38,834 nt of DNA from contig JAGMDR010000158.1 in NCBI GenBank assembly GCA_023128595.1, positions 1 through 38,834 on the forward strand. The letters run 5' to 3'. Below are positions 2,888 to 33,750 of this stretch, piece by piece (position 1 is the first letter of the stretch; the number at the start of each line of letters is the position of its first letter). The position numbers and the translations under genes are program-made. Origin of the DNA: Planctomycetota bacterium. GTDB taxonomy: Bacteria; Planctomycetota; Phycisphaerae; Sedimentisphaerales; Anaerobacaceae. Below the pieces are notes generated by a model that had not been told where the DNA came from, ran no database searches, and saw only the letters and a list, made by a program, of their open reading frames with translations.

Positions 2888-5248
2888 TCAGCCAAAAGCG
2901 CTCAATATACCGGCGGCGGCCATCTGGTTCTGGAGCAAAGCCAACACCTTCTCGAGCCGGGCAAAGCGAAGGATTAACCTGGATTCCCTCTGGACAAGGC
3001 GGTATTCTTCGAGCTCGATCTTCTCCTCCAGTTGCTCTATCTGGTCCTCTATATGCTTCTTGCTTATCGGGAACGAGCCCGTTGTTGCCTTGAGCATCCT
3101 GTCGACGTGATCTTCTATCTTGCCGGTGAAGCCCTGCTTGACGCGAACCGTAGCTGTGTAATCGTCGTCCGTGCTCAGGTCAACGCTGAGCTGAAGGCTG
3201 TTCTCCGCATAGACGGGGTCGCCGTTGGTATCGAAGGTGCTGTTGCCCGTGACAATATTTCCGCTGTAGGTTGCATCGCGGTAGGTTGATTCGCTCGAGA
3301 GCTTGATTTGCGCACTGGTTATGGCTCCGCCGCTGACCGTAACCTGAACATCATATTCACCGGCTGTCGTGTACTCGGTGTGGGCGCCGTAGAACTTGAT
3401 TATGTCGCTGGTGCTGCTGCCGGTCTTGTCCGCCCCGATTACGGCCAGGACGCCCATATAGTCTTCGCCTATGGCCTCGTCAAATTCATTCATGTCCAGA
3501 CTCAGCACTCCGTCCCTGTCCAGATCGAGACCAATATGGAGCGGGGTCAGAAAGGTGTCGATGTCCTGAATGAACCCGGCTGTCTGCTCGATAAGCGGCT
3601 CACGAAACTTGTAGCGGATTGTCGAGACGACATAATCGGCCATCAATACACCGGCGGTCTTGTTGACTTCATTGTAGCCGGTCTTTTCCTTGATAAACTC
3701 CACCGCAGAATTGTAGGCGATAATCATAGAATCCAGCTTGTCCTTGACCGATTGTATGTCCCTGGTCAGGGTCAGCTCCTCGCCGCCGGCATCGGTGGTA
3801 TCGTGCAGATGCAGAGTCACGCCGTAAATAACGTCGTCCACCGTGTTCGAGCTTCTGCTGATCAAACCCGCGGCCCCCTTTGTCGTTTCCGTGATCGTGA
3901 CGGTCAGTGTAGGAGTGAGGTTGCTGTCGTCAATCGTAATCATGCTGACGTCACCGAGCGTATTGCTGAACGTGAACGTCACATCACCATCGTCTAAACC
4001 GTTAGCACCGCCGTCTACCGTTATATCATCGGTGGCAACTGTGGACAAGAGCTCGAGCGCGGCCTGAATAACCGCAGGACTCGCGTCGAATTCAATCGCC
4101 GCAGTGGTTTGCCCTTTGTAGGTCAGGGTGTAAGTGCCGCCGCTCGGCGACTTGCTTGGGCTCGCCGTCTGCACTTCAGAAATTGCCCCACCGGAGGGAT
4201 AGCCGTCCACCTGAATCTCTGAATCCTGAGCGGCCTGGCTCAGGCTAAAGTCTGAAGCGGTAAAACCTGACAGAGCTCCCGGTGTGCCACCCGCCGTTGA
4301 AACGGATATATCGAGCGGGGTCAGTGTTGTCTCACCCAAACCCGGATCGTAAGTCAAAGTGATTAAAAGACTGCTTGTCCCGTAGGTATCATCCGTCAAA
4401 ACAATCTTGCCATTTTCAAGAACTGCCTTGGCAGTCCCGTCGAAAGCGTCGTTAATCTCCCCAATGAGATGTTCGAGTCTGGTGTTCTCGGTAACGCTTA
4501 GATCTACCTGAGCTATGGCAACACCGTCATGGTCGGTTCCGGTGATTTCAATAACTTCATCACCTGCGAGTGTCCCGCTGAACTGATCAAGGTCTGTAAT
4601 CTTCGTGGTCAGTGTGGCGTTATCACTACCCTGCGTAAAGGGCGAGCCTGATTTCCAGACTTTGGTGCTGCTTGCATTGACTGAGATCGTATAATCCGAG
4701 CCGGCATCATTGCCGTTCAGGACCAAATGATACGCGTCGTCGTGGTACAACAGGCCGGCTGTAACGCCAGGATTATTCGCATCGTTATTGATCAGGCCAA
4801 CCATGTCCTGTAGCGTTGTCGTCGCGGTGGTCGTTATGCTCGTTTCCTTGTGATTGTAGGAGTAAATGAAAGTGCCCACCCCAACATAGTCTTCGGTGTA
4901 TTCCTTGCCGCTTGTATGGACCCACCGCTCAGCGGTCGCCAACTGATTGATTACAACCGTGTGATTGCCCTCGAAGGCATCGTTTGTCGCCTCGGCGGTA
5001 AGGTAATCAGTGTCGCTCGAAGAAACCGCATAAGCGCGGAGTGCATCAGCGTCGGAAAGGGCACGAACGGAGCTTCTTAAGTTACTCAGTTTGCTCTCTA
5101 AGGTGCTCAGGGCCTCCTGTCTCTCTTCCCAAAGGGTCTTGCGCCGTTCGTACGTATTGAGTGTACGGCGTTGAAGAGCCATTAGCTGCTGCACGAGCTG
5201 TCCTGTATCAATCCCTGACTGCAGTCCCGGAAGACGTATTGAAGGCAT
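2888..5248 (-). CDS. fliD: Flagellar filament cap protein FliD (hook-associated protein 2), with inserted modules
   Basis: FliD caps the growing filament and folds flagellin subunits into place outside the cell. I chose the ATG at 5246-5248: it gives MPSIRLPGLQSGIDTGQLVQ, the usual FliD start, and a GAAAGG lies 8 nt upstream. An in-frame TTG at 5275 is possible but has no such support. At 786 residues it is well above the usual 450-550. N-terminal helices (1-70) and the C-terminal coiled coil (about 730-765, IEDQIEQLEEKIELEEY) are standard. A roughly 106-residue module (355-460) is inserted between VDGYPSGG and the conserved ISRSSNTVDDVIYGVTL. It carries a GTYTLTYKGQTTAAI-type motif. A second beta-rich insert lies near 610-700. 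A sigma-28 type promoter precedes the gene. Confidence 0.95.
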   Translation of the reverse strand: MPSIRLPGLQSGIDTGQLVQQLMALQRRTLNTYERRKTLWEERQEALSTLESKLSNLRSSVRALSDADALRAYAVSSSDTDYLTAEATNDAFEGNHTVVINQLATAERWVHTSGKEYTEDYVGVGTFIYSYNHKETSITTTATTTLQDMVGLINNDANNPGVTAGLLYHDDAYHLVLNGNDAGSDYTISVNASSTKVWKSGSPFTQGSDNATLTTKITDLDQFSGTLAGDEVIEITGTDHDGVAIAQVDLSVTENTRLEHLIGEINDAFDGTAKAVLENGKIVLTDDTYGTSSLLITLTYDPGLGETTLTPLDISVSTAGGTPGALSGFTASDFSLSQAAQDSEIQVDGYPSGGAISEVQTASPSKSPSGGTYTLTYKGQTTAAIEFDASPAVIQAALELLSTVATDDITVDGGANGLDDGDVTFTFSNTLGDVSMITIDDSNLTPTLTVTITETTKGAAGLISRSSNTVDDVIYGVTLHLHDTTDAGGEELTLTRDIQSVKDKLDSMIIAYNSAVEFIKEKTGYNEVNKTAGVLMADYVVSTIRYKFREPLIEQTAGFIQDIDTFLTPLHIGLDLDRDGVLSLDMNEFDEAIGEDYMGVLAVIGADKTGSSTSDIIKFYGAHTEYTTAGEYDVQVTVSGGAITSAQIKLSSESTYRDATYSGNIVTGNSTFDTNGDPVYAENSLQLSVDLSTDDDYTATVRVKQGFTGKIEDHVDRMLKATTGSFPISKKHIEDQIEQLEEKIELEEYRLVQRESRLILRFARLEKVLALLQNQMAAAGILSAFG

Positions 5249-5256
5249 TTTGCCCG

Positions 5257-5262
5257 CCTTTC
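5257..5262 (-). promoter_or_regulatory. Ribosome binding site that decides the fliD start
   Basis: On the minus strand GAAAGG lies 8 nt upstream of the ATG at 5246-5248. This favours the ATG over the in-frame TTG 27 nt further upstream and yields the canonical FliD N-terminus. Confidence 0.7.
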
Positions 5263-5305
5263 TCTCAAACCTCAAGATTCAAGTCTAATAGACCACTACG
5301 TTTTA

Positions 5306-8214: not shown

Positions 8215-11200
8215 TCAATAATTCTCCACGGCTTCAAATGCCCTGATTATGTTTAGCAATCTGTTCACGTAAGTATGGTGGCTCTTGACTATTTCCTGCT
8301 GCTCGTAAATCATATCTCTATATCTGCTCAACGGTAAGCTGAGCGTATTGTCGATTAGCTCTTCGATACTTTGGCCCTTAACAGTGCAATCGTTAAATAT
8401 ATCATCGAACTTTCTGACATTTGAGACGCCCAGTTGACCGTATGAAATATTCTTCCACATCCGGCAGGGAAGATAGTTGTTTTCCACCTGCCAGCGGCCG
8501 GCAATTGTCGGGGCAATAAGCGAATGGCGAACATACTTGATATTCAGCGAACCTGAAATGCCCTGTAAGTGAATGAATCTTATATTCCTTTTTTCGAGGA
8601 CATCCTTCAGCATTTCGATTTCGTTGACATTGCCCCGATCCAGACGATCATTCCATATACTGCCGACCCAAAAGACAATGTTGCCTACGGGTTCGAGTAT
8701 CGGCTCTTCAAATTCATCCGCGAGCAAATCTGTTGCCCAGGGTTGAAACAGAATGCGGTTCTTACCGTCGAAAAACGTTACCTGGTCCCACATTTGGCCG
8801 GCCTGCGCAGCCGAATTCATATATGTCTGAAGTCTGATGTTGCGCGATGGGTCAATTCTTCGATGAATATCATCCGAACAATTGTGCAGACAATAATACA
8901 CGTTGTCCCTGATGGGCAGGTGCGAGCTGGAAACATCAACAGAGATGACCAGGTCATTGCTTTCTACTATATCTTCGTTCTCCCTGCGGTCATCCACCAG
9001 AACGACACTTGCGCCCAGCTTCTCTAACGTACGGAAGAAGTGATGGTGAATGTAAGCATGAGTATGTTCCTGGGTTTTGAGCCCCCATACAACTACCTTG
9101 TTGAATTTCTCAATCTTTCTGCGCAGTTGCGTTTCAGAACGCTCGCAGTGGGATTTCGTCGAAGTCCGTCTCACAGTCGTCTCTGTAGTTGCCTGATTCC
9201 TCGCGTTTAGCCCCCCCCAAGCATCGGAATAGACCGGCCCCTCGTCATAAGGCTCCTCAAGGCCGGGCCTTATGGAATAGCCGTTAACAGTACTGATAGA
9301 GCCGTTTTTTGTCGAACAGAGCACAGGAGCGGGCGAGCACTGCTCTCGGCGGGCCGCCCGAATCAACAGGTCCGGCCCCGGCTCAAAATCCGGTGCTAAC
9401 CTGACCACCGCTGTCGCCGCCTTCTCCGCCAAAGCACCATCTCGGCACTTATAGGCCGCTCTGGCTAAGTACCACAACACCTGCTCGTGATCACAAAATG
9501 ATCTAACAGCCTGCATAAGTTCCTGCTCAGCTTCGGCAAACAGGCCCCGCTGAAAACACGCAAGCCCGTGCCAGAAACTCTCGATACTCGAATCAATTCT
9601 CTCCAAATCGGCGGGCACATTAAATGCCTCGGAAAAGTCATCCTGCCACAGCAAACGCCCCGGCCTCGGGATCTCAGCGCCAACAAAATGGCTCCAGCGA
9701 CGCCGGCACAGCTCAATGTCACGACCGCTGGCGTCGGCGTTGGCCTGTTTCTGCACGTCAAGCAGATTATTGTGAGTAACAAAACATCCTGGCAGCGGGA
9801 TAAACTGCCTGCCGTTTTCGTACAGCTTGTAGCAAAAATCTGTATCGGCGCAATAGAACCTGTACGCCTCGTCAAAGCCGCCGACCTGCCTGAAACTCTC
9901 CAGTCTGAGCAAACCATAGTTCATCAACAGTTTGTTCCCGTGCGTAAAATCGATACCGTACTTAGCCCAATCCTCTCTCGTTGGGTGTATGTTCTTATAG
10001 AAAAAGATGCCCCCTGCCGCCTCATCTCTCTGCTTTTCGAGCAGCTCTACCGCCCGAGCGAGCGCGCCCGGGCTAAATACGATGTCATCGCTGGCGTACA
10101 TCGCCCATTTGCCGCGGGCCTTTGAAAAGCCAAAATTATACAACTGCGGCCACGAGTGCCTGCCCACCCCAAGCCATTGCGACTCACTGTAGATCTCTCT
10201 TACGTTATGCTTGCCCAGCACATCCAAGGTATTATCAGACGAGCCCCCTTCGACAACAATTATCTCATAAGCTACACCACCGGCGGCCTCTCTGAGACTG
10301 CCAAGCATCTGGTCCAGCAGCCCCGCCCGGTCCTTCGTGCAAAGTACAATACTGACATCACACTCTGCCTCTTGACCGTGTCCGCTGCGCACCATCGAAT
10401 CAGCTTCGTGGATGGAAACATCCTCACTGCTCCCTGAAGTCTCAAAAGAATGCTGTGGGATCGCGGGTTCTCTGTTTTTATATGTTATCTGCTGCGACTG
10501 CTTCTCGAGGAACTCCAGGGCAGAAGGAAAAATGATTCCAACCGACATCTGGCTCGTATCTTCTATGCCCCTTTCTCTGAGATACCGATGGTGATGAGTT
10601 GCAAACGTTCTTCCCAGCGAAGCCCAGAGGCTCTCCGGGTTTGAAACCAGGTCCCTGTCGAATCGTCGGCGCAAATATCCAAAGAACCTCTTGGCCAAGA
10701 AAAGCCACTTCTCCTTTTCCCATTCACACGTGTGCCTGATATGATATGCGAACGGCGAAACAAGTCTCTTTGTTTGAAAGCCCTCCACAGCCGGAATTAA
10801 CGGCGCCCAATAGTCCCACCACGGCATCCCTATACAGAATTCGGACTCCGGATAACAGGATATCAGTGACCTATCGAAAAAGAAGAAATCAAATCCATCC
10901 TGATAGACTTCGCCCTCCGGATGGTCTAAAGAATCAACATCGGTTCTCGACCCATAAATAAGGCAGTTTTCCGCCTCGCTTTTAATAAAGGAAATAATAC
11001 CTTCGTCTGCAACTAAATGAATATCCGAATTCACAATCCCACAAATCCTGTATCCGCTTTCCCTAAAATACTCGAGGAACTCATCAAAATATATAAGAGG
11101 CTTGCCGAACGCCTCCCTTGCGTCCCGCTGGGGCCGAACAAATCTGACTTCCGGGAAAAACTCTCGAAGGGACTCTATCTCCTCGGCGCAATTTATCGAA

Positions 11201-12579
11201 ACAACGTCGAAGCCGAGTTTGATCCAGCTTTCAATCGCTTCAATCTGAGCCTCAATCCTTCTGGGAGCTATGCTCGTGGCAATTGTCAGGCGCGCGTCTC
11301 TGCCTGTCTCAACATCAGACCGGCACGTGGCATCCTGTAATCTCTCTGGCCCTTGTACGTAAATATCCGGACTATTTTCACGCCCGGATATGGCAGTCCT
11401 ACGGCCCTCGACTGCAATGATCTCAACAGCACTGACATCCAGGAACTTGTCACAGGACTGCCACGCGGGTCTTGAGGATTGCGGCTTCCACAATGAGCTG
11501 CCCTGCACAAACAGGCGCGTCTTCGGCGAAGATTTCTCAAGAGTCTGCCGAAGAGCTTCGGCGATAACTTCCGGTGCAACATCCTTGACACAATGAGGAG
11601 CCTCATATCGACAACCCCAATTGCATCCATAACACTCCAGAGGCAAACAGACAACAGAAGTTAGCGGCGAATAAGGCATAAAACGCCCGAAATGTCCGCC
11701 GCCTAACAGGATAACGTTGGGTCTTCCAACAGCGCAGGTAATATGTGCCAGGGCCGTCTCCGCTCCGATGGCAAGTCTGCACCGTTTCAATACCGCGGCG
11801 GACTCTCGGATACTCGTTCCGGCGCTTAGGTTTACCGTCCTGACTCCAGCCGCATCCAAGTTTCTCTGATTAATGTCTCGATCTTGCTCCGTGCCAAGTG
11901 CGATTACCTCAAGCTGATTCGCCTTGCAAAACTCAGACAGCGCTTCGCCATATCTCTCATACACGCGACCGCCATATTGTGCACCGGCAAACAGAACGAT
12001 TGTCTTACTCGGATTGAGTCCATTTTCTCGAAATAGCCTGTCGGCAAATTCCTCATTTTCCTGTGTCGTCCAGACCATCGGGCGTAAGTCCTGTACCTCA
12101 ATACCCAATCCTATGAGAAAATCTTTGTGTCGCTTAAGCTCCGGTTCATGCTCACCGCAGCTTGGCAGCAGGTTGGTGTAGAATTGATTGTGCATGTTTC
12201 TGAGCTCGGCTGGAATGTTGCACAGATTTCCTTCGAGTGCAACACGCTGCTCGGCCCCGCACTTTATCGCAAACCAATCCGTCAGGGCCTCACGGGAATA
12301 TACCGAATTCAACGACACATCCGGTTTCAACGCCCTGAGCCGCTCTACAACCTCTTCTCGGTAGCGCTCGTCCAGGAGGGCCCGTTGCCTGTCAAAGACT
12401 ACGATGTCATCAACATAGGGACAGGCCTCGTATAGCTCGGCGATATGCTCCTGACAGACAACGCTTATCCCGGCGTCTTCGTACTTTTGTCGGATGTACG
12501 GCAGCATCGACGAAGAAAGCACCGCATCGCCTATCGAATCCGTCCTGACCCAGAGTATGTTTCTAATATCGGTTCTCAT
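8215..12579 (-). CDS. Four-module glycosyltransferase: GT9 + GT-A-like + GT2 + TPR + GT-B (1454 aa)
   Basis: The order of modules is as follows. Residues 1-350 resemble ADP-heptose-type GT9 heptosyltransferases, with VRTDSIGDAVL at 11-21 and AETALAHITCAVGRPNVILL at 273-292. Residues 430-640 form a GT-A-like unit with VNSDIHL at 516-522. Residues 740-960 form a GT2 unit starting VSIVLCTKDR, with ASDDI at 829-833. A TPR-like helical stretch spans 1000-1070. Residues 1158-1454 form a GT-B-like domain resembling the CgeB / Glyco_trans_1_2 type. The start is ATG without a strong ribosome binding site. A run of eight G on the coding strand (plus-strand C run at 9211-9218) falls at residues 1121-1123, just before the last domain. 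The product probably adds several sugars of the flagellar glycan; the sugars are not known. Confidence 0.85.
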   Translation of the reverse strand: MRTDIRNILWVRTDSIGDAVLSSSMLPYIRQKYEDAGISVVCQEHIAELYEACPYVDDIVVFDRQRALLDERYREEVVERLRALKPDVSLNSVYSREALTDWFAIKCGAEQRVALEGNLCNIPAELRNMHNQFYTNLLPSCGEHEPELKRHKDFLIGLGIEVQDLRPMVWTTQENEEFADRLFRENGLNPSKTIVLFAGAQYGGRVYERYGEALSEFCKANQLEVIALGTEQDRDINQRNLDAAGVRTVNLSAGTSIRESAAVLKRCRLAIGAETALAHITCAVGRPNVILLGGGHFGRFMPYSPLTSVVCLPLECYGCNWGCRYEAPHCVKDVAPEVIAEALRQTLEKSSPKTRLFVQGSSLWKPQSSRPAWQSCDKFLDVSAVEIIAVEGRRTAISGRENSPDIYVQGPERLQDATCRSDVETGRDARLTIATSIAPRRIEAQIEAIESWIKLGFDVVSINCAEEIESLREFFPEVRFVRPQRDAREAFGKPLIYFDEFLEYFRESGYRICGIVNSDIHLVADEGIISFIKSEAENCLIYGSRTDVDSLDHPEGEVYQDGFDFFFFDRSLISCYPESEFCIGMPWWDYWAPLIPAVEGFQTKRLVSPFAYHIRHTCEWEKEKWLFLAKRFFGYLRRRFDRDLVSNPESLWASLGRTFATHHHRYLRERGIEDTSQMSVGIIFPSALEFLEKQSQQITYKNREPAIPQHSFETSGSSEDVSIHEADSMVRSGHGQEAECDVSIVLCTKDRAGLLDQMLGSLREAAGGVAYEIIVVEGGSSDNTLDVLGKHNVREIYSESQWLGVGRHSWPQLYNFGFSKARGKWAMYASDDIVFSPGALARAVELLEKQRDEAAGGIFFYKNIHPTREDWAKYGIDFTHGNKLLMNYGLLRLESFRQVGGFDEAYRFYCADTDFCYKLYENGRQFIPLPGCFVTHNNLLDVQKQANADASGRDIELCRRRWSHFVGAEIPRPGRLLWQDDFSEAFNVPADLERIDSSIESFWHGLACFQRGLFAEAEQELMQAVRSFCDHEQVLWYLARAAYKCRDGALAEKAATAVVRLAPDFEPGPDLLIRAARREQCSPAPVLCSTKNGSISTVNGYSIRPGLEEPYDEGPVYSDAWGGLNARNQATTETTVRRTSTKSHCERSETQLRRKIEKFNKVVVWGLKTQEHTHAYIHHHFFRTLEKLGASVVLVDDRRENEDIVESNDLVISVDVSSSHLPIRDNVYYCLHNCSDDIHRRIDPSRNIRLQTYMNSAAQAGQMWDQVTFFDGKNRILFQPWATDLLADEFEEPILEPVGNIVFWVGSIWNDRLDRGNVNEIEMLKDVLEKRNIRFIHLQGISGSLNIKYVRHSLIAPTIAGRWQVENNYLPCRMWKNISYGQLGVSNVRKFDDIFNDCTVKGQSIEELIDNTLSLPLSRYRDMIYEQQEIVKSHHTYVNRLLNIIRAFEAVENY

Positions 12580-12603: not shown

Positions 12604-15600
12604 TTACGCCAGCGGCTGTAGCTCGGGTGCAACGCGTATGTCATTAGTCTCAATGTCCATTTTCCTTTCATCGCTGGTGTTGTAATTAAGTAGTGGCGCA
12701 TCAATCAGAATCGACTTGTTGAATGTCTTCAGGACGTTCAGACAGAATTCTCTATCCTCCACTCCCTGGACTAAGCCGGCCCATGCAACCTTCTGCAGAA
12801 CCTCGCGCCTGATACACAGCGCCCCGGCGTGGGTCCTCATGAACCCGGCGCCAAACGCCTTTGGCATCGGACCCTGCACAAAGTACTTCTCATAAAGTTC
12901 CTGCGACGGAGCTGTCTGAATATTATCGTAAACAATTTCCCCCGCTTCGCCTTCACTGAAGGTTGTATATGAATGGCACAGGTGCACAATGTCGTGCTCC
13001 TTGAAGAAGCTCTTGACAATCTCAAGCCTTTGCGGATGCTGGGTATCATCGGCGTCATGATATAAAATCACATCTCCGTTCAGACTTTCCGTCAAACGCT
13101 CTCGTGCGCTGGCGGCATCAAGCCGTTGTTCGCACCATTTTATCTCCAGCGCAAAGATATCTTTGAACTTCTCGTACAGTCTGTTGAGCCGGTCCAACTG
13201 CTCTTGCCCCTCTACAGGAGAAACAACGATTACCACTTCGTCGGGAACCTCCGTCCCACGGGCTATCTTAGACAACGCATTATCAAGATATCTGACATGA
13301 TGCCGGGCACACAGAATGGCTACCGAAGTTCTCAAGGAATTCGACACCACGTAACAGCTCGAAGTCGATTCGGTTTGCTGCAAAACTGCACGGCACTGCT
13401 CATCCAAAGGACAGAGTTTCATCACCCGTTTCGCAATTCCACGGGCCTTGTCGGATTGTCCTTTGTCGGCGTAATAAGCGGCAAGCTCACACATAGCGGT
13501 CATACAGGAAGGCTCAACAACAAGCACCCGCTGCCAGAGCTGCGCGGCCTCATCATTCCTCTGAAGCGATTTCAAACGGTCGGCTCCCCGAAGCAACGCC
13601 CCCAAATCGCTGCGCCAACGATCTGTATAGGAATCGAAATTGACCGTAACCTGCCACGCAACCCTGTCTTGCTCAGCCCGCACCTGCTGTGATTTGCTAA
13701 TGACGTGCTCAATCCCTCTTCGCATATTCTCCTCGAAAGTCTGTTGCGAATAGTCGCGCAATGCCGCCTGCCTGGTCTTTATCGAATGCTCATAATGCCA
13801 CTGCGCGGGCTTCGCCATAACCTCACGCACAACCCGAACAATCTGGTCAATAGAATCGTCCTGCAGCATTATCCCGAAATCGTCCACATCTATGTTCGCC
13901 TCACGATTGACAATCGGAATCAGCCCCTGGTTCATACACTCAACCACACCACCGGGAGAACCCTCCGCACACGATACAAATATCGTACTGTTGCACAGGG
14001 TCATAAGCTCGTAAAAACGAGGCGACCTGAGTTCGACCCAGCTCACAAAATGAATATTCGAATGTTTGGGTAATGCCTCTTTGTACACCTCCGCAAAACC
14101 CGGCTCCACCGGTCCGGCACACCACAGTTCCGCATCCAACTGCATAAAGGCCTCAACCAGCAAACCAAGACCCTTGTGAATATTGCCTCCGGAGCCAAAG
14201 TAAAGGAAATGCCTGCGCCCGGCATCAAAGTCTTTGGCCGCAGCGTCATAATGGTCATCCCCATAGCACGCGTTGTTAAGGTTGAAGCAAACGGGGGACT
14301 GCCTGTAGCTGGCCGCAGCATTTTTATTGCCGAGACATATAATCCCATCGGCATCGTGAACCGCAAATTCTTCACTAAATTCTATCCGTCGGTCGTATGG
14401 CAGCCGCACACCACGACGCTCTTCAAGTCTATCAAATCTCTCCGCCTCCTGGCGATTGAACTGTCGCCAGTATATCCCCGTTGCAAAATAAATCTTTATA
14501 GCATCACGGACAACATTTCTGCTGAGATATTCCCAGTTAGCTCCTGCGTGTCCTATGAAAAGGTCGTAAGTCTTATCACTTTCAAAGTCCATGCAGTTCC
14601 AGTCTATCAAATCTACAACGTAGCCCATCTCAACCAGAACCTTAACCATACTGCGGGCTATACCGGCATTGCTGAACATAAACGGCTGGTATTGAGGCCC
14701 CATCCTGAGCGGCGCCGTAATGTAAGAAACCAGCGCATTTTTCTTGGCAGCCTTTAGCACAGGCTGACAGGGCCGGTTCGTTCCAGGACCCGCCGAAACT
14801 TTTCTTCCAAAACCGGCAATAAAATTCGACATCACATCAGGGTGCGTACCTGTGAACGGCTGTGTATGCGAATGCTCATCACCCAACCATACCGGATATG
14901 TCCTTTCTATCCGCTCACGGTTCTGCGGATTCCACTTCAGGAAACATTCTTTGTACCATGCTTGGCGGTCGAACCCCCAGAAGTCCCCTTTCTTGTCCAT
15001 CCTGCCGTAGTAATCGTTCTTCTGCTTGACCTGACTGTCCAACACATAATTGTAATGATATAGGATCACCCCCATTTCTCTCGTTGCCGTCCCACCCCAA
15101 AGATGCATTTGCTCGGTAGTCCTGTTACAGCCAGGCCAGACCATTGTGGGCGGCCGGTGAGATATGAATACGGCCCCTGGAACAAACTTGAACAGCCTTC
15201 TGAAGTGATTTGAAAATTCGAAGAACTTCGATGAATAGACTATATGATCCGGCCCCTTCCAGAAACTGTTCGGGATGAAATTCACCTGCGTAATAGACGG
15301 ATCGCTCTTGACGATTCCCTTGATCCTGTCGAGGTCGTTACGCTTGTATACCTCGTCGGAGTCTATGAGCCAGACGTAATCTCCCGAGACGTGTTTTAGC
15401 GCCTCGTTCTGCATTTCGCATTTTTCGGGCCATCGACCTTGGATCAAGGTGATTTTGTTTTCGGGATCGGGGAAAGACTTGATGAACTCGACGGTGCCGT
15501 CTTTGCTGCCGCCATCGGGATTGGCGGCGAACAGACAATTTTCGACGGCGCCCTCGACGATGATAATCTCGTGAGCAAAGTCGTAAACGGATTTCAGGCT

Positions 15601-17223
15601 GTACTCGATGAAGGGCATTGCGTTCAAGGCGATCATAACAAATGAAAACTTGTTCGGAGTTTTCTGCGCCAAGTTCTGAAGGCCATTCAAGCCGTCATTA
15701 ATCCTTCTGAGATTCTCCTGGTGCAAGACAACCTTTATTTGCGTAATCTGAGATCGAGGCATAGTGGGAACTGTGAATTCAGCGCCGCACTTGTTCAAGA
15801 ATTCCCAAACAGCATGTCCCTTTTGCGCCGCCGTTCCTGCATCTATTCGCGAACCATCAAGGACAATCCCTGCGTCGTCAATGAGAATAACGCCTCCGGT
15901 CAACATCATCGGGATCAACAGTTTGAATTCCTCAAAAATCACATCCTTGTCGTTCACGGAGTCGAGAAAAGCCATGTGAAATCGGCGGTTCTTCATACTT
16001 TTGAGGTGAGTAACAGAATCCGACAGTATCCACTCGACGTTCGAGGCATTTCGGCACACCTGCTTGCTGACCATTATCGAATAGGGGCTTATGTCAATTG
16101 TAATAATGCGGCCCGCTTCGCCCAACACTTCTGATATATATCGGGTGCTCTGGCCGGATTCATGGTAGAAGCGGATTGTCCCCGTTTCAATAACCTCGAT
16201 GTGGTCGCTGGGAAACTTCTGTTTTACTTCATTTGCGGCATCGATAACATTCTGCATGTCAACGGGCTTTTGATACAATCGGCCGTAGAGGTCATAGTTT
16301 CGCACATAATCCATCATCACTTCCGGGTGTATGCCGTCGAACAATTCCGTATGCGAATTCTTATCCTCAATCCAGACCGGATAGTAGCTTTCGACTTCCT
16401 CCCTGTTCGCGTGCATCCATTTTCTGAAGCACTCGTTGCGCCACTGAATCAGATCAATTCCACGTTCACGATTCAATCCAAGCCTCAGGCACTTCTCAAT
16501 CCACAAGTCGAGCTGAGCATGAGAAACAAAAGTGTAGTTGAAAATCACAACTCCATTGCGTCTCATTTCGCAGGCATCCAACCGATTCACCGGGATGGCG
16601 CCGGCCGATGAATTCGACTCGGGAATTCTCAGAGACGATTCTCGGTCAAAAGTCGCCCCTTTGAAATACTTGAACACTCGCGGACAGTGATTGCGCTTGC
16701 TGTGAAGATCATCGGACACAATGACATAATCGAGTACTTTCCAGAACATTTCAGCAATAAAATCAATTTGCGTGACGGAATCATCCGCAGCAAGAATCTG
16801 CCTCACTCTTGTCAGATCCTGTCTCCTGTAAACTTCGACAGGATCTATAAGCCAAACATAATCTCCAGTGACATATTTGAGGGCCTCGTTCTGCATTTCG
16901 CACTTTTCAGGCCATCGGCCCTGGACCAGCCTGATTTTCTCTTGCGGATCAGGGAAAGACTTTATGAATTCGACCGTCCCGTCGGTGCTGCTTCCGTCGG
17001 GATTGGCGGCGAACATACAATTCTCGACGGCGCCCTCGACAATGATTATCTCGTGAGCAAAGTCATAGACAGATTTAAGGCTGTATTCAATGAACGGCAT
17101 CCCGTTTAGCACAATCATAACAAATGAGAACTTTGGTTCCCGCTCTTGTGCACTTGGCGAGACTCTTGGGCTAATGCTCGAGTCTAATCCGTTACCATCA
17201 ATGGATACGTTTTCGTTGTTCAA
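12604..17223 (-). CDS. Mega-enzyme: GT2 + methyltransferase + GT2 + GT4 + TPR + GT2 (1539 aa)
   Basis: Five catalytic-type modules are visible. GT2 copy A (31-310) and GT2 copy B (525-805) are close duplicates, both carrying FIEYSLKSVYDFAHEIIIVE. Copy B has LIDSDEVY (619-626); copy A has LIDPVEVY (125-132), so the DxD-type motif is lost there. Between them, 335-500 looks like a class I SAM methyltransferase of the Methyltransf_24 type (ETGT near 346-349). Residues 830-1180 are a GT4 GT-B domain with FGSGGNIHKGLGLLVEAF and CAEGSPGGVVECM. A TPR stretch (about 1205-1285) precedes a final GT2 (1298-1530, DADD at 1390-1393). The start is TTG at 17221-17223 with AAAGGA 6 nt upstream; the next in-frame ATG falls inside the GT2 core. 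Confidence 0.86.
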   Translation of the reverse strand: MNNENVSIDGNGLDSSISPRVSPSAQEREPKFSFVMIVLNGMPFIEYSLKSVYDFAHEIIIVEGAVENCMFAANPDGSSTDGTVEFIKSFPDPQEKIRLVQGRWPEKCEMQNEALKYVTGDYVWLIDPVEVYRRQDLTRVRQILAADDSVTQIDFIAEMFWKVLDYVIVSDDLHSKRNHCPRVFKYFKGATFDRESSLRIPESNSSAGAIPVNRLDACEMRRNGVVIFNYTFVSHAQLDLWIEKCLRLGLNRERGIDLIQWRNECFRKWMHANREEVESYYPVWIEDKNSHTELFDGIHPEVMMDYVRNYDLYGRLYQKPVDMQNVIDAANEVKQKFPSDHIEVIETGTIRFYHESGQSTRYISEVLGEAGRIITIDISPYSIMVSKQVCRNASNVEWILSDSVTHLKSMKNRRFHMAFLDSVNDKDVIFEEFKLLIPMMLTGGVILIDDAGIVLDGSRIDAGTAAQKGHAVWEFLNKCGAEFTVPTMPRSQITQIKVVLHQENLRRINDGLNGLQNLAQKTPNKFSFVMIALNAMPFIEYSLKSVYDFAHEIIIVEGAVENCLFAANPDGGSKDGTVEFIKSFPDPENKITLIQGRWPEKCEMQNEALKHVSGDYVWLIDSDEVYKRNDLDRIKGIVKSDPSITQVNFIPNSFWKGPDHIVYSSKFFEFSNHFRRLFKFVPGAVFISHRPPTMVWPGCNRTTEQMHLWGGTATREMGVILYHYNYVLDSQVKQKNDYYGRMDKKGDFWGFDRQAWYKECFLKWNPQNRERIERTYPVWLGDEHSHTQPFTGTHPDVMSNFIAGFGRKVSAGPGTNRPCQPVLKAAKKNALVSYITAPLRMGPQYQPFMFSNAGIARSMVKVLVEMGYVVDLIDWNCMDFESDKTYDLFIGHAGANWEYLSRNVVRDAIKIYFATGIYWRQFNRQEAERFDRLEERRGVRLPYDRRIEFSEEFAVHDADGIICLGNKNAAASYRQSPVCFNLNNACYGDDHYDAAAKDFDAGRRHFLYFGSGGNIHKGLGLLVEAFMQLDAELWCAGPVEPGFAEVYKEALPKHSNIHFVSWVELRSPRFYELMTLCNSTIFVSCAEGSPGGVVECMNQGLIPIVNREANIDVDDFGIMLQDDSIDQIVRVVREVMAKPAQWHYEHSIKTRQAALRDYSQQTFEENMRRGIEHVISKSQQVRAEQDRVAWQVTVNFDSYTDRWRSDLGALLRGADRLKSLQRNDEAAQLWQRVLVVEPSCMTAMCELAAYYADKGQSDKARGIAKRVMKLCPLDEQCRAVLQQTESTSSCYVVSNSLRTSVAILCARHHVRYLDNALSKIARGTEVPDEVVIVVSPVEGQEQLDRLNRLYEKFKDIFALEIKWCEQRLDAASARERLTESLNGDVILYHDADDTQHPQRLEIVKSFFKEHDIVHLCHSYTTFSEGEAGEIVYDNIQTAPSQELYEKYFVQGPMPKAFGAGFMRTHAGALCIRREVLQKVAWAGLVQGVEDREFCLNVLKTFNKSILIDAPLLNYNTSDERKMDIETNDIRVAPELQPLA

Positions 17224-30543: not shown

Positions 30544-31734
30544 CTATATGATAAAATCTAAAAGTGACATCGACATAAGTCTTCCGGCCACCGACAGCGA
30601 CATTTGATACAGAACCTCTCGACGGGAAATGTCGATGGCAATCTGGGCAATGTCGGCCTCCTGCAGCATCGTTGTCTCATCTTCGGTGCCAAATTTTATG
30701 TTCTCGACAGTACCTTTCATATCCTCAAGGAATCCTATTCTCGACCCCATCGAAACGGATTTTTCCGTCAGAAGACTTCTTATCTCTTCCAATGATCCAA
30801 TAGAATTATTTCGCAGCTCCTGAAGCTGAGCGTCGGAAAGCCCCCTCTGGTTTTTCAATATGTCCCGGATATTGATAAGCGTGTTAAAAGTATCATAGGT
30901 CCCCGGCACACGAACCATATCGACTCCCGTACTTATAGTTGTCGCATCAACATACAGCACATCTCCGTCGGAATTCTCAACCGCTATGTTGCTGACATCT
31001 CCAATGGTTGGCACCTCCACAGTATTATCACCGTCATCAATAGAGAGTTCATATTTTTCGCTGGTCTCGTTGTAAGTTACTGTCAACCACACGTCACCCG
31101 TTACACTTGATGTCCCCGTGCCCGCTTTGGCGCCGGTATCACCCAGAAAGACCGGTGTGCTTCGGCTGTCCGAGCGAAAAATCTGGTCTCCAACGTAAAA
31201 AGCCGATGACTGCACACCTGCAGCTACTTCGATCTCTCGATTCTCGAAACTGCCCTGGTAAGTCACACTCGTGATCTCTCCATTGGTGCGCGCCACCGCG
31301 TAGGGCGCCGAGCCGGTATCACCTCCTCCAAAAAGGTGTTCATTCAAATGCTTCGTATTGGCCAGCGAAACCACCTGCTCTAATGTGCTGTTGATCGCCT
31401 CAGCGATTCTCTCTCGCCCCTCCTGCCCGTAAACGCCGCTGACAATTTGAGTCAGGAGCACCTTTGTATCTGCGAACTGAGATATCATATCCTCGACAAC
31501 CACCATGGATATCTCCAGCGTGCTGACGGCCTGCGAGATATTATCCATATAGCCTTCCAGGAACCTCTCCTGGGAGTTCAGCCCCAGAACACGATAGGCG
31601 ATAGAAGGGTCATCGGATGCTCGATTGATTCGCGAGCCGGTGGATGCCTGCTCCTGCAGCCGCGACAGGGCCTCCGTATGAAGATGCAAAGCAAAGCCCA
31701 AATCGCTATAAATGCTGTTCAGTGGTCCACTCAT
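30544..31734 (-). CDS. flgL: Flagellar hook-filament junction protein FlgL
   Basis: FlgL forms the outer ring of the junction between hook and filament. The 396-residue product has the flagellin-like N-terminal helix region (LQEQASTGSRINRASDDPSIAYRV, residues about 27-50) and a matching C-terminal helix with EADIAQIAIDISRREVLYQ. The middle holds beta-rich sequence with the family motif LFGGGDTGSAPY. Length is somewhat above the common 300-320. The ATG has GAGAGG 5 nt upstream. It follows flgK by 27 nt and is the last structural gene before the glycosylation island. Confidence 0.94.
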   Translation of the reverse strand: MSGPLNSIYSDLGFALHLHTEALSRLQEQASTGSRINRASDDPSIAYRVLGLNSQERFLEGYMDNISQAVSTLEISMVVVEDMISQFADTKVLLTQIVSGVYGQEGRERIAEAINSTLEQVVSLANTKHLNEHLFGGGDTGSAPYAVARTNGEITSVTYQGSFENREIEVAAGVQSSAFYVGDQIFRSDSRSTPVFLGDTGAKAGTGTSSVTGDVWLTVTYNETSEKYELSIDDGDNTVEVPTIGDVSNIAVENSDGDVLYVDATTISTGVDMVRVPGTYDTFNTLINIRDILKNQRGLSDAQLQELRNNSIGSLEEIRSLLTEKSVSMGSRIGFLEDMKGTVENIKFGTEDETTMLQEADIAQIAIDISRREVLYQMSLSVAGRLMSMSLLDFII

Positions 31735-31761
31735 TGCGACCTCTCGGGTAAATTCCGCCCC

Positions 31762-33750
31762 CTATACTACTTCCATAAGACTCAACATTGACGACTGGAC
31801 AATGCTTATGTACTTGGCCATCGCCTGAAACATCTGCTCGAAAACCAATAGCTGGGCCGCCTCCTCGCTGATGTCAACGCCGCTTATATCGCTCTGCCGG
31901 TCGCCAAGATTCTGGACCATCTGCTCCATGTTATCCTGCCGCATTTGCCTGAGCGAAACCTTCTGACCCACGCCTGACACCACTCTGCGATAAAACTCCC
32001 CACACGTCAGTGAGGTCAAACTGCTGATAGTCAGCTCTTTCACCGCCGCCATCCGCAAAGCATTCGTGTTGTCGGTCATATCGGCGCCGAGGGCCGCGGC
32101 CACCCGACCGGGCGTGGCCGATACATCCGAACAGACCGCTATATCATCGGCACTGTTCCCGGAGAAAAAGGTGTTTATCCCAACCGCTGCCAACACCCCG
32201 GAAGTGTCGGTATTGCCAAATGCTTTCACCTGAAAACTGTCGTCTGCAACTAAATCGCCTGTGGTAAGGGCGATTTTGATCCCGTTGCCAATATCAAGCT
32301 TGTCACCCGCCGCGTAACCCGATCCGACATTAAGAGTGGCAACAGTATTATCGCCACTGTCGGTCACAACAAGCTGCAGCGTACCGTTACCCACTGCCAG
32401 ACCTGTGCCGGAGACGGTGAACGTAAAAGTATCTTTTGACGTACCCGTATAGATGCCCGATACGGATACGGTCGGCGGCGGTGTGCCGGTTAGATTCAAA
32501 GTGTCGCTCTCGGGCGAAGAAAGCACGGCAGGTGAGAAGTCGAATTTGTAGCCACCATCAGCCTGTATGCACAGCTTTGAACTGACAATTGATGCACTCA
32601 CACCACTAAGTGCGTCAATGGCATCCTTTAAAGTGGTCAACGTATCACCGCCTGTATCTGCGTCAACAGTAACTTCTTCTCTGGTTACCACTCCCGTTGA
32701 GGTATCGGTAATTCTTATAAATATTGAGCCGTCAATCACAGATGGATTAGTGTAATCAGCAAATTCTTTGTCAGCGTCGGATACCACCCTGCCGGTCAAC
32801 TCCGTAAAGGAACCCTCCGAGCCGACCCCCTGAACGTGGTACTGATTTATCTGCTGTATTATCGCGCTTGCTAAAGAGTCCAGATCGGTGTGAACATCGG
32901 ACACAAGATCGTTTTTTAGGGATAGTAATCCGCCAATCTTTCCCCCGGCAATATCAGTATGGTAAGTCGCCGCACCGACGACAGAAATACCCAACTTAGC
33001 ATTTTCATCCAGCCCCGCCTCAAGTTCCATAGTAGAAGCACCCGCCACTACCGCTATCCCCACAACACTCACATCCACCACTCCGTATGGCCTACTCTGT
33101 GTCTCAATACTGATCAACTCTGCCAGGTCGCCTATCAGCTTGTCCCTTTGGTCACGCAGGTTGTTCGCATGACCGCCGCCTATTTCAACGCTTTGGATGC
33201 TCTTGTTGAGCTCCGCAATCTGGCTTGTGAGTGAATTGATGGATTCAACGACGTTTTCGATTTCCAGCCTAATCTCCGTTTCCAATATGGTCAGGAACTC
33301 TCCCAACGTCCTGAATTGGCCGGCCATCGCGCCCGCATCGCTCACCGCCTGATTTTGCCAGACAGCATCTCCGGGATGAGCACTAAGATCCTGCAAGGCA
33401 TTGAAGAACCTGTCTATTGCCGCGTTCAACCCACCGTCCTTTGTTGAAAGCTCTCCCAATGCACTTTCAACGGTTCGCAGCGTGACAAGCTCACGGTCAA
33501 CATGCCCGGCCAAAGAACGCTGCCGAAGAATCTCCTTCTCCAGAAGATCATCTATCATCCTGGTGACGCTTTCCACCTTAACACCCGTTCCGAACAGCAG
33601 GGAGCCTTCCTGCCATGAGGCAGCAGGCCTGAGTTCTATCCTCTGACGGTGGTAGCCCTCGGTGGCCGCATTGGCAATGTTGTTGCCTATCACCTCGAGC
33701 GCTTTCCTGGCCGCACTAAGACCACTGATACCTATGAAGTAATCCGACAT
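31762..33750 (-). CDS. flgK: Flagellar hook-associated protein FlgK (HAP1), with extra module
   Basis: FlgK forms the first junction layer on the hook tip. The 662-residue product starts with the canonical rod/hook-type motif (LEVIGNNIANAATEGYHRQR, 18-37) and ends with the canonical VDISEEAAQLLVFEQMFQA (625-643). FlgK is typically about 450-650 residues, so this is at the long end. A beta-rich module at about 427-512 (32215-32472) carries GIYTGTSKDTFTFTVSGTG and GNGIKIALTTGDL, a pattern I recall from planctomycete flagellar and surface proteins. It follows flgN by 28 nt. Confidence 0.95.
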   Translation of the reverse strand: MSDYFIGISGLSAARKALEVIGNNIANAATEGYHRQRIELRPAASWQEGSLLFGTGVKVESVTRMIDDLLEKEILRQRSLAGHVDRELVTLRTVESALGELSTKDGGLNAAIDRFFNALQDLSAHPGDAVWQNQAVSDAGAMAGQFRTLGEFLTILETEIRLEIENVVESINSLTSQIAELNKSIQSVEIGGGHANNLRDQRDKLIGDLAELISIETQSRPYGVVDVSVVGIAVVAGASTMELEAGLDENAKLGISVVGAATYHTDIAGGKIGGLLSLKNDLVSDVHTDLDSLASAIIQQINQYHVQGVGSEGSFTELTGRVVSDADKEFADYTNPSVIDGSIFIRITDTSTGVVTREEVTVDADTGGDTLTTLKDAIDALSGVSASIVSSKLCIQADGGYKFDFSPAVLSSPESDTLNLTGTPPPTVSVSGIYTGTSKDTFTFTVSGTGLAVGNGTLQLVVTDSGDNTVATLNVGSGYAAGDKLDIGNGIKIALTTGDLVADDSFQVKAFGNTDTSGVLAAVGINTFFSGNSADDIAVCSDVSATPGRVAAALGADMTDNTNALRMAAVKELTISSLTSLTCGEFYRRVVSGVGQKVSLRQMRQDNMEQMVQNLGDRQSDISGVDISEEAAQLLVFEQMFQAMAKYISIVQSSMLSLMEVV

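Follow-up and report, generated by a model that had tools for sequence, protein, structure and literature searches.

The window analysed here comprises 38,834 nucleotides of a planctomycete draft MAG (80% complete, 579 contigs). It contains a flagellar glycan island, flanked by flgG-flgA-flgH-flgI-flgN-flgK-flgL and by fliD-flhB-fliR. Glycosyltransferase (GT), methyltransferase (MT) and sugar-nucleotide genes lie among the flagellar genes. The neighbouring genes, which encode an FkbM-type MT protein, a GT9-GT2 protein, a GT2-GT2 protein and a UDP-sugar dehydrogenase, keep their order in several relatives; fliD adjoins the GT block in the loci L018, L025, L026 and L027, and lies near the end of L016. 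Thus, the synteny of flagellar and glycan genes makes it likely that the 1539-residue protein encoded in this island acts in the flagellar glycan. We found no literature on planctomycete flagellar glycosylation.

Fused proteins recur in islands of this kind. In L013, a GT2-MT part and a GT9-GT2 part form one protein of 2008 aa. From end to end, the GT9-GT2 protein of the window (8215-12579) is 63% identical to the C-terminal portion of this fusion (L013 9528-13865), but it has a gene of its own, 24 bases downstream of the one for the 1539-aa protein. L014 (7080-14948) and L016 (2298-11555) encode fused glycan proteins of 2622 and 3085 residues, respectively (counted from stop to stop); both contain several GT domains, and that of L014 also an MT. 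Between 20528 and 26237, the window encodes a UDP-sugar dehydrogenase, a radical SAM protein, a DUF362 protein and an unassigned protein of 462 aa, a set that partly recurs in L013, L015 and L018. These are possible donor-sugar or unusual-modification genes.

Table 1. Features of the 1539-residue protein and of the flagellar genes in the window.
Feature	Position	Strand	Basis
fliD	2888..5275	-	PF07195/PF02465
Flagellin-N/FlgL-like gene and flgK	30544..33750	-	PF00669, PF22638
Multidomain protein GT2(A)-MT-GT2(B)-GT1/GT4-TPR-GT2(C), 1539 aa	12604..17223	-	ORF, Pfam
Start of the 1539-aa ORF: TTG codon, AAGGA-like sequence upstream	12604..17223	-	Start context
Copy A, degenerate GT2 domain, residues 31-310	16294..17133	-	BLASTP to B, PF00535, AlphaFold
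Copy A, conserved N-terminal part, residues 31-140	16804..17133	-	85% aa identity to B
Copy A, degenerate C-terminal part, residues 141-310; 13 lost C-part invariants including HRP195-197, H229, Q240, K241	16294..16803	-	
LIDPVEVY, copy A residues 125-132, D-P-V in place of DxD	16828..16851	-	
Methyltransferase domain, PF13578 at residues 356-450, module to about 512	15688..16278	-	Pfam
Copy B, intact GT2 domain, residues 525-805	14809..15651	-	BLASTP to A, pLDDT, SunS 7msp fold match
LIDSDEVY, copy B residues 619-626, DxD intact	15346..15369	-	
GT4-like (Glycos_transf_1 type) module, residues 806-1195	13639..14808	-	Weak PF13692; similar module in L016, L027
TPR segment, residues 1196-1290	13354..13638	-	Pfam, relatives' modules
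Third GT2 domain (C), DADD motif; PF13641 at 1301-1492	12607..13353	-	Pfam

Copies A and B both belong to the GT2 family, with PF00535 scores of 32.9 and 45.8 bits against a cut-off of 23.3, and both are predicted by AlphaFold to adopt a GT-A fold (pLDDT 91.0 for A and 94.8 for B). The models were built with alignments of active homologues, which biases that of A towards GT-A; its confidence drops to ~51 just behind a lost HRP motif, at domain residues 171-180. The outline given by the first-pass annotation, two related GT2 copies with an MT between them and DPV in A where B has DSD, was found in full. Both of the motif sites that it placed exist, but in reversed order relative to its text. 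The third GT2 domain (C) shows no similarity to A or B, and the loci of the relatives examined contain nothing that matches it at 1e-6. No further copies of the A/B domain were found elsewhere in the genome.

The two copies align over 283 columns with 53% amino acid (BLASTP, E = 1e-107) and 65% nucleotide identity. This identity is unevenly distributed: the first ~105-110 residues are 85% identical at the amino acid and 79% at the nucleotide level, the remainder 33% and 50%. The earlier description as close duplicates holds for the first part of the domain only. Synonymous divergence (dS) between the copies is about 1.7 in the N-part and saturated in the C-part. Measured from A, the N-part dS is 1.74 to B, 1.61 to L013 and 1.87 to L006, with identical-codon fractions of 0.59, 0.60 and 0.56, respectively. 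At synonymous sites, A is therefore as far from the domains of other genera as it is from B, and the low divergence that marks a recent tandem duplication is missing. This rules out the recent duplication or recent A-B gene conversion that had been proposed, and the flanking modules moreover have their counterparts in two different groups of relatives.

The subfamily is uncommon. Besides this genome, it occurs in 10 genomes of the order, one copy each, and outside the order in one Verrucomicrobia and one Geomonas record. We aligned A and B with 12 homologues from other genomes, each of which has one copy and an intact acidic DxD (D-x-D-E in all members other than A). Seventy columns are invariant apart from A, and A has changed 14 of them: D129, G163, F173, H195, R196, P197, T220, H229, Y232, V238, Q240, K241, Y245, and P271. 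The losses are concentrated in the C-part: A keeps 39 of the 40 N-part residues that are invariant in the 13 others, compared with 17 of 30 in the C-part (Fisher p = 2.6e-5), and the constraint falls abruptly near residue 135. The sole N-part invariant lost is the second, metal-binding Asp of the DxD (D129V, next to S128P), while the first Asp (D127) and E130 are retained. Polar side chains are not significantly enriched among the lost residues.

More distant single-domain relatives from other classes, compared among the readable members (L024, L047 and L048 left out), keep the DxD and largely keep HxPP, HY and QV..K. DPV was found in none of the 12 homologues and in none of the readable distant members, and thus in one MAG only. 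The first-pass annotation would have taken its reading as refuted if homologues of copy A kept DxD and DPV were only a sequencing error or recent mutation in this genome. Half of this applies: DxD is intact in the homologues linked to an MT, and DPV is confined to this genome, but 13 further losses show that it is neither an error nor an isolated new mutation. A derivation of A's C-part from another GT2 subfamily was rejected, as a search of 161 genomes of the order returned no relative closer than the ordinary members (best match 42%).

A has lost the metal-binding Asp together with the HRP, His and QK residues, which in distant relatives are largely retained. Most likely, therefore, it is a GT-A domain without catalytic activity in which selection still acts on the donor-side half; for the lost residues other than the Asp, a catalytic role is presumed. 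The earlier suggestion that A is a pseudoenzyme and B the transferring copy agrees with this pattern: A very probably is the non-catalytic and B, which like all 12 homologues has the second Asp, the active domain. In GT-A enzymes, the C-terminal half forms most of the acceptor side. Since this is the half that has degenerated, the acceptor-binding role suggested for A is weakened. The alternative suggestion of donor binding is weakened by the GT2 enzyme TarS, in which the equivalent Asp (D93) chelates Mn and the D93A substitution abolishes both activity and UDP-GlcNAc binding (PMC5156392).

Selection on A was evaluated by polarising codon changes with L013 as the outgroup. Codons changed on A only comprise 13 synonymous and 1 nonsynonymous in the N-part, and 14 and 30 in the C-part. 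In the C-part tree, the branch of A measures 4.09 against a median of 0.54 (about 7.6x), whereas its N-part branch is ordinary (0.08 against a median of 0.11). Relative-rate counts agree with this split. Judged from these codon patterns, the N-part of A appears to be under strong purifying selection, in the single genome in which A has been seen.

The flanking modules bear on the origin of the two copies. The MT is ~50% identical to the MTs that follow a single GT2 in G056/L013 and G016/L025, and the GT4-TPR module follows a single GT2 in L016 and G125/L027, with the GT4 part 56-68% identical. The gene in the window carries both pairings. As GT2-MT stands alone in two relatives and GT2-GT4-TPR in two others, the joining of two pre-existing modules is favoured by the flanks, though not proven by them. 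Tree tests reject neither A and B as sisters (p-AU 0.10) nor A with L013 (p-AU 0.36). Rather unlikely, in our estimate, is a tandem duplication inside the gene with capture of the MT between the copies, the pairings of the relatives being later losses: the sister grouping is not rejected and the N-parts are 85% identical, but B clusters with the GT2-GT4 proteins of L016 and L011 and with L009 (support 80/82), the MT and GT4-TPR modules reside in separate relatives with one GT2 each, and the synonymous divergence of A and B equals that between genera. In L021 (Geomonas paludis) and L020 (a Verrucomicrobia MAG), the same GT2 is followed by a different Methyltransf_24-like domain and a GT9. This suggests that the GT2 module spread horizontally between phyla.

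The present state of A can be read in several ways. It could be a relic in decay, subject to little selection, that does nothing but keep the frame for the downstream domains; its N-part would then look conserved only because an intact copy (B or an unsampled allele) had overwritten it by gene conversion. The abrupt fall of constraint near residue 135 and the occurrence of A in one genome would suit such a relic, and the downstream domains would preserve the reading frame anyway. However, a pure relic is expected to decay over its whole length, and the conservation of the N-part counts against it unless that part was refreshed from an unsampled copy. Synonymous sites show no special closeness between the N-parts of A and B, and the DxD loss lies inside the conserved stretch, so that a conversion would have had to precede it or stop short of it. 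We regard this explanation as unlikely.

It is still less probable that A remains a glycosyltransferase, metal-independent or with an altered active site and a new acceptor. The fold, the N-part, D127 and E130 are all retained; yet D129, H195, R196, P197, H229, Q240 and K241 are all missing, and no relative is closer to the C-part than ordinary members are. Least credible is a sequencing or assembly artefact. The contig does come from a draft assembly of many pieces, but the longest exact word common to A and B is 20 bases, the composition is similar along the gene, the reading frame is intact across 14 changed invariant positions, and the module order agrees with that of relatives.

The explanation that we consider reasonably probable combines the joining of modules with the partial retention of A. 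The protein would be a chain of transferase modules in the flagellin/flagellar glycan island, with flagellin as the putative acceptor, in which [GT2-MT] and [GT2-GT4-TPR] were joined end to end, each headed by the same GT2 subfamily. Copy B would be the working glycosyltransferase of the subfamily. Copy A, lacking the second DxD Asp and many C-half residues, would transfer no sugar, and its N-half, the nucleotide-binding half of the GT-A fold, would probably persist for structure or docking, keeping the MT attached to the chain. The combination of DPV and C-part decay was seen in no second genome.

If the N-part is indeed kept for a non-catalytic reason, A would be a clean case in which one half of a GT-A domain evolves at the normal rate of its family and the catalytic half has been lost. 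Such a case would help to tell what in GT2 enzymes serves donor-side structure and what serves catalysis. If A is merely a relic, the case is an ordinary one. The very large flagellar glycan proteins of Planctomycetota appear to owe their variety to the addition and joining of modules that each start with a member of one GT2 subfamily.

Among known systems, the best structural matches of both copies are SunS/ThuS, TarS, TarP, SpsA, and WrtF. SunS ranks first in the PDB for both copies (7msp for B), with a whole-domain TM of about 0.47 that makes only the core comparable, and is also the best sequence-profile match (E = 5e-4). SunS/ThuS differ, however, in sharing 14-18% identity with only the N-terminal GT-A core superposing well, and their Cys glycosylation finds no support here. 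The combination of a PF00535 GT and a methyltransferase domain in one flagellin-glycan protein resembles the GT2 protein CDR20291_0242 of Clostridioides difficile type B flagellin, which is proposed to add and methylate rhamnose (PMC5207246). As described, its methyltransferase belongs to a different Pfam family (PF08241), and the parts of that source consulted do not mention an inactive second copy. The architecture of Caulobacter FlmG is modular, too: this cytoplasmic flagellin O-glycosyltransferase has a domain set apart for binding flagellin (PMC7591256). Compared by description, it differs in belonging to the pseudaminic acid pathway and in binding its substrate by an N-terminal domain.

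No literature on pseudo-glycosyltransferases with DxD was found, but the pairing of an active with an inactive GT domain is already known from human LH3 (PLOD3). LH3 combines active and apparently inactive GT-A-type domains with another enzyme domain in one polypeptide, and an accessory, non-catalytic role has been named as a possibility for its AC domain (PMC6082870). By analogy, and only tentatively, A could be a maintained pseudo-glycosyltransferase whose nucleotide-binding half serves as a scaffold or donor sensor, positioning or regulating the MT and the active GT2. Such a domain would be a bacterial equivalent of the accessory domain in LH3. The likeness is one of analogy only: LH3 is a collagen enzyme, its active GT comes first and the AC domain second, and its domains lie outside this GT2 subfamily.
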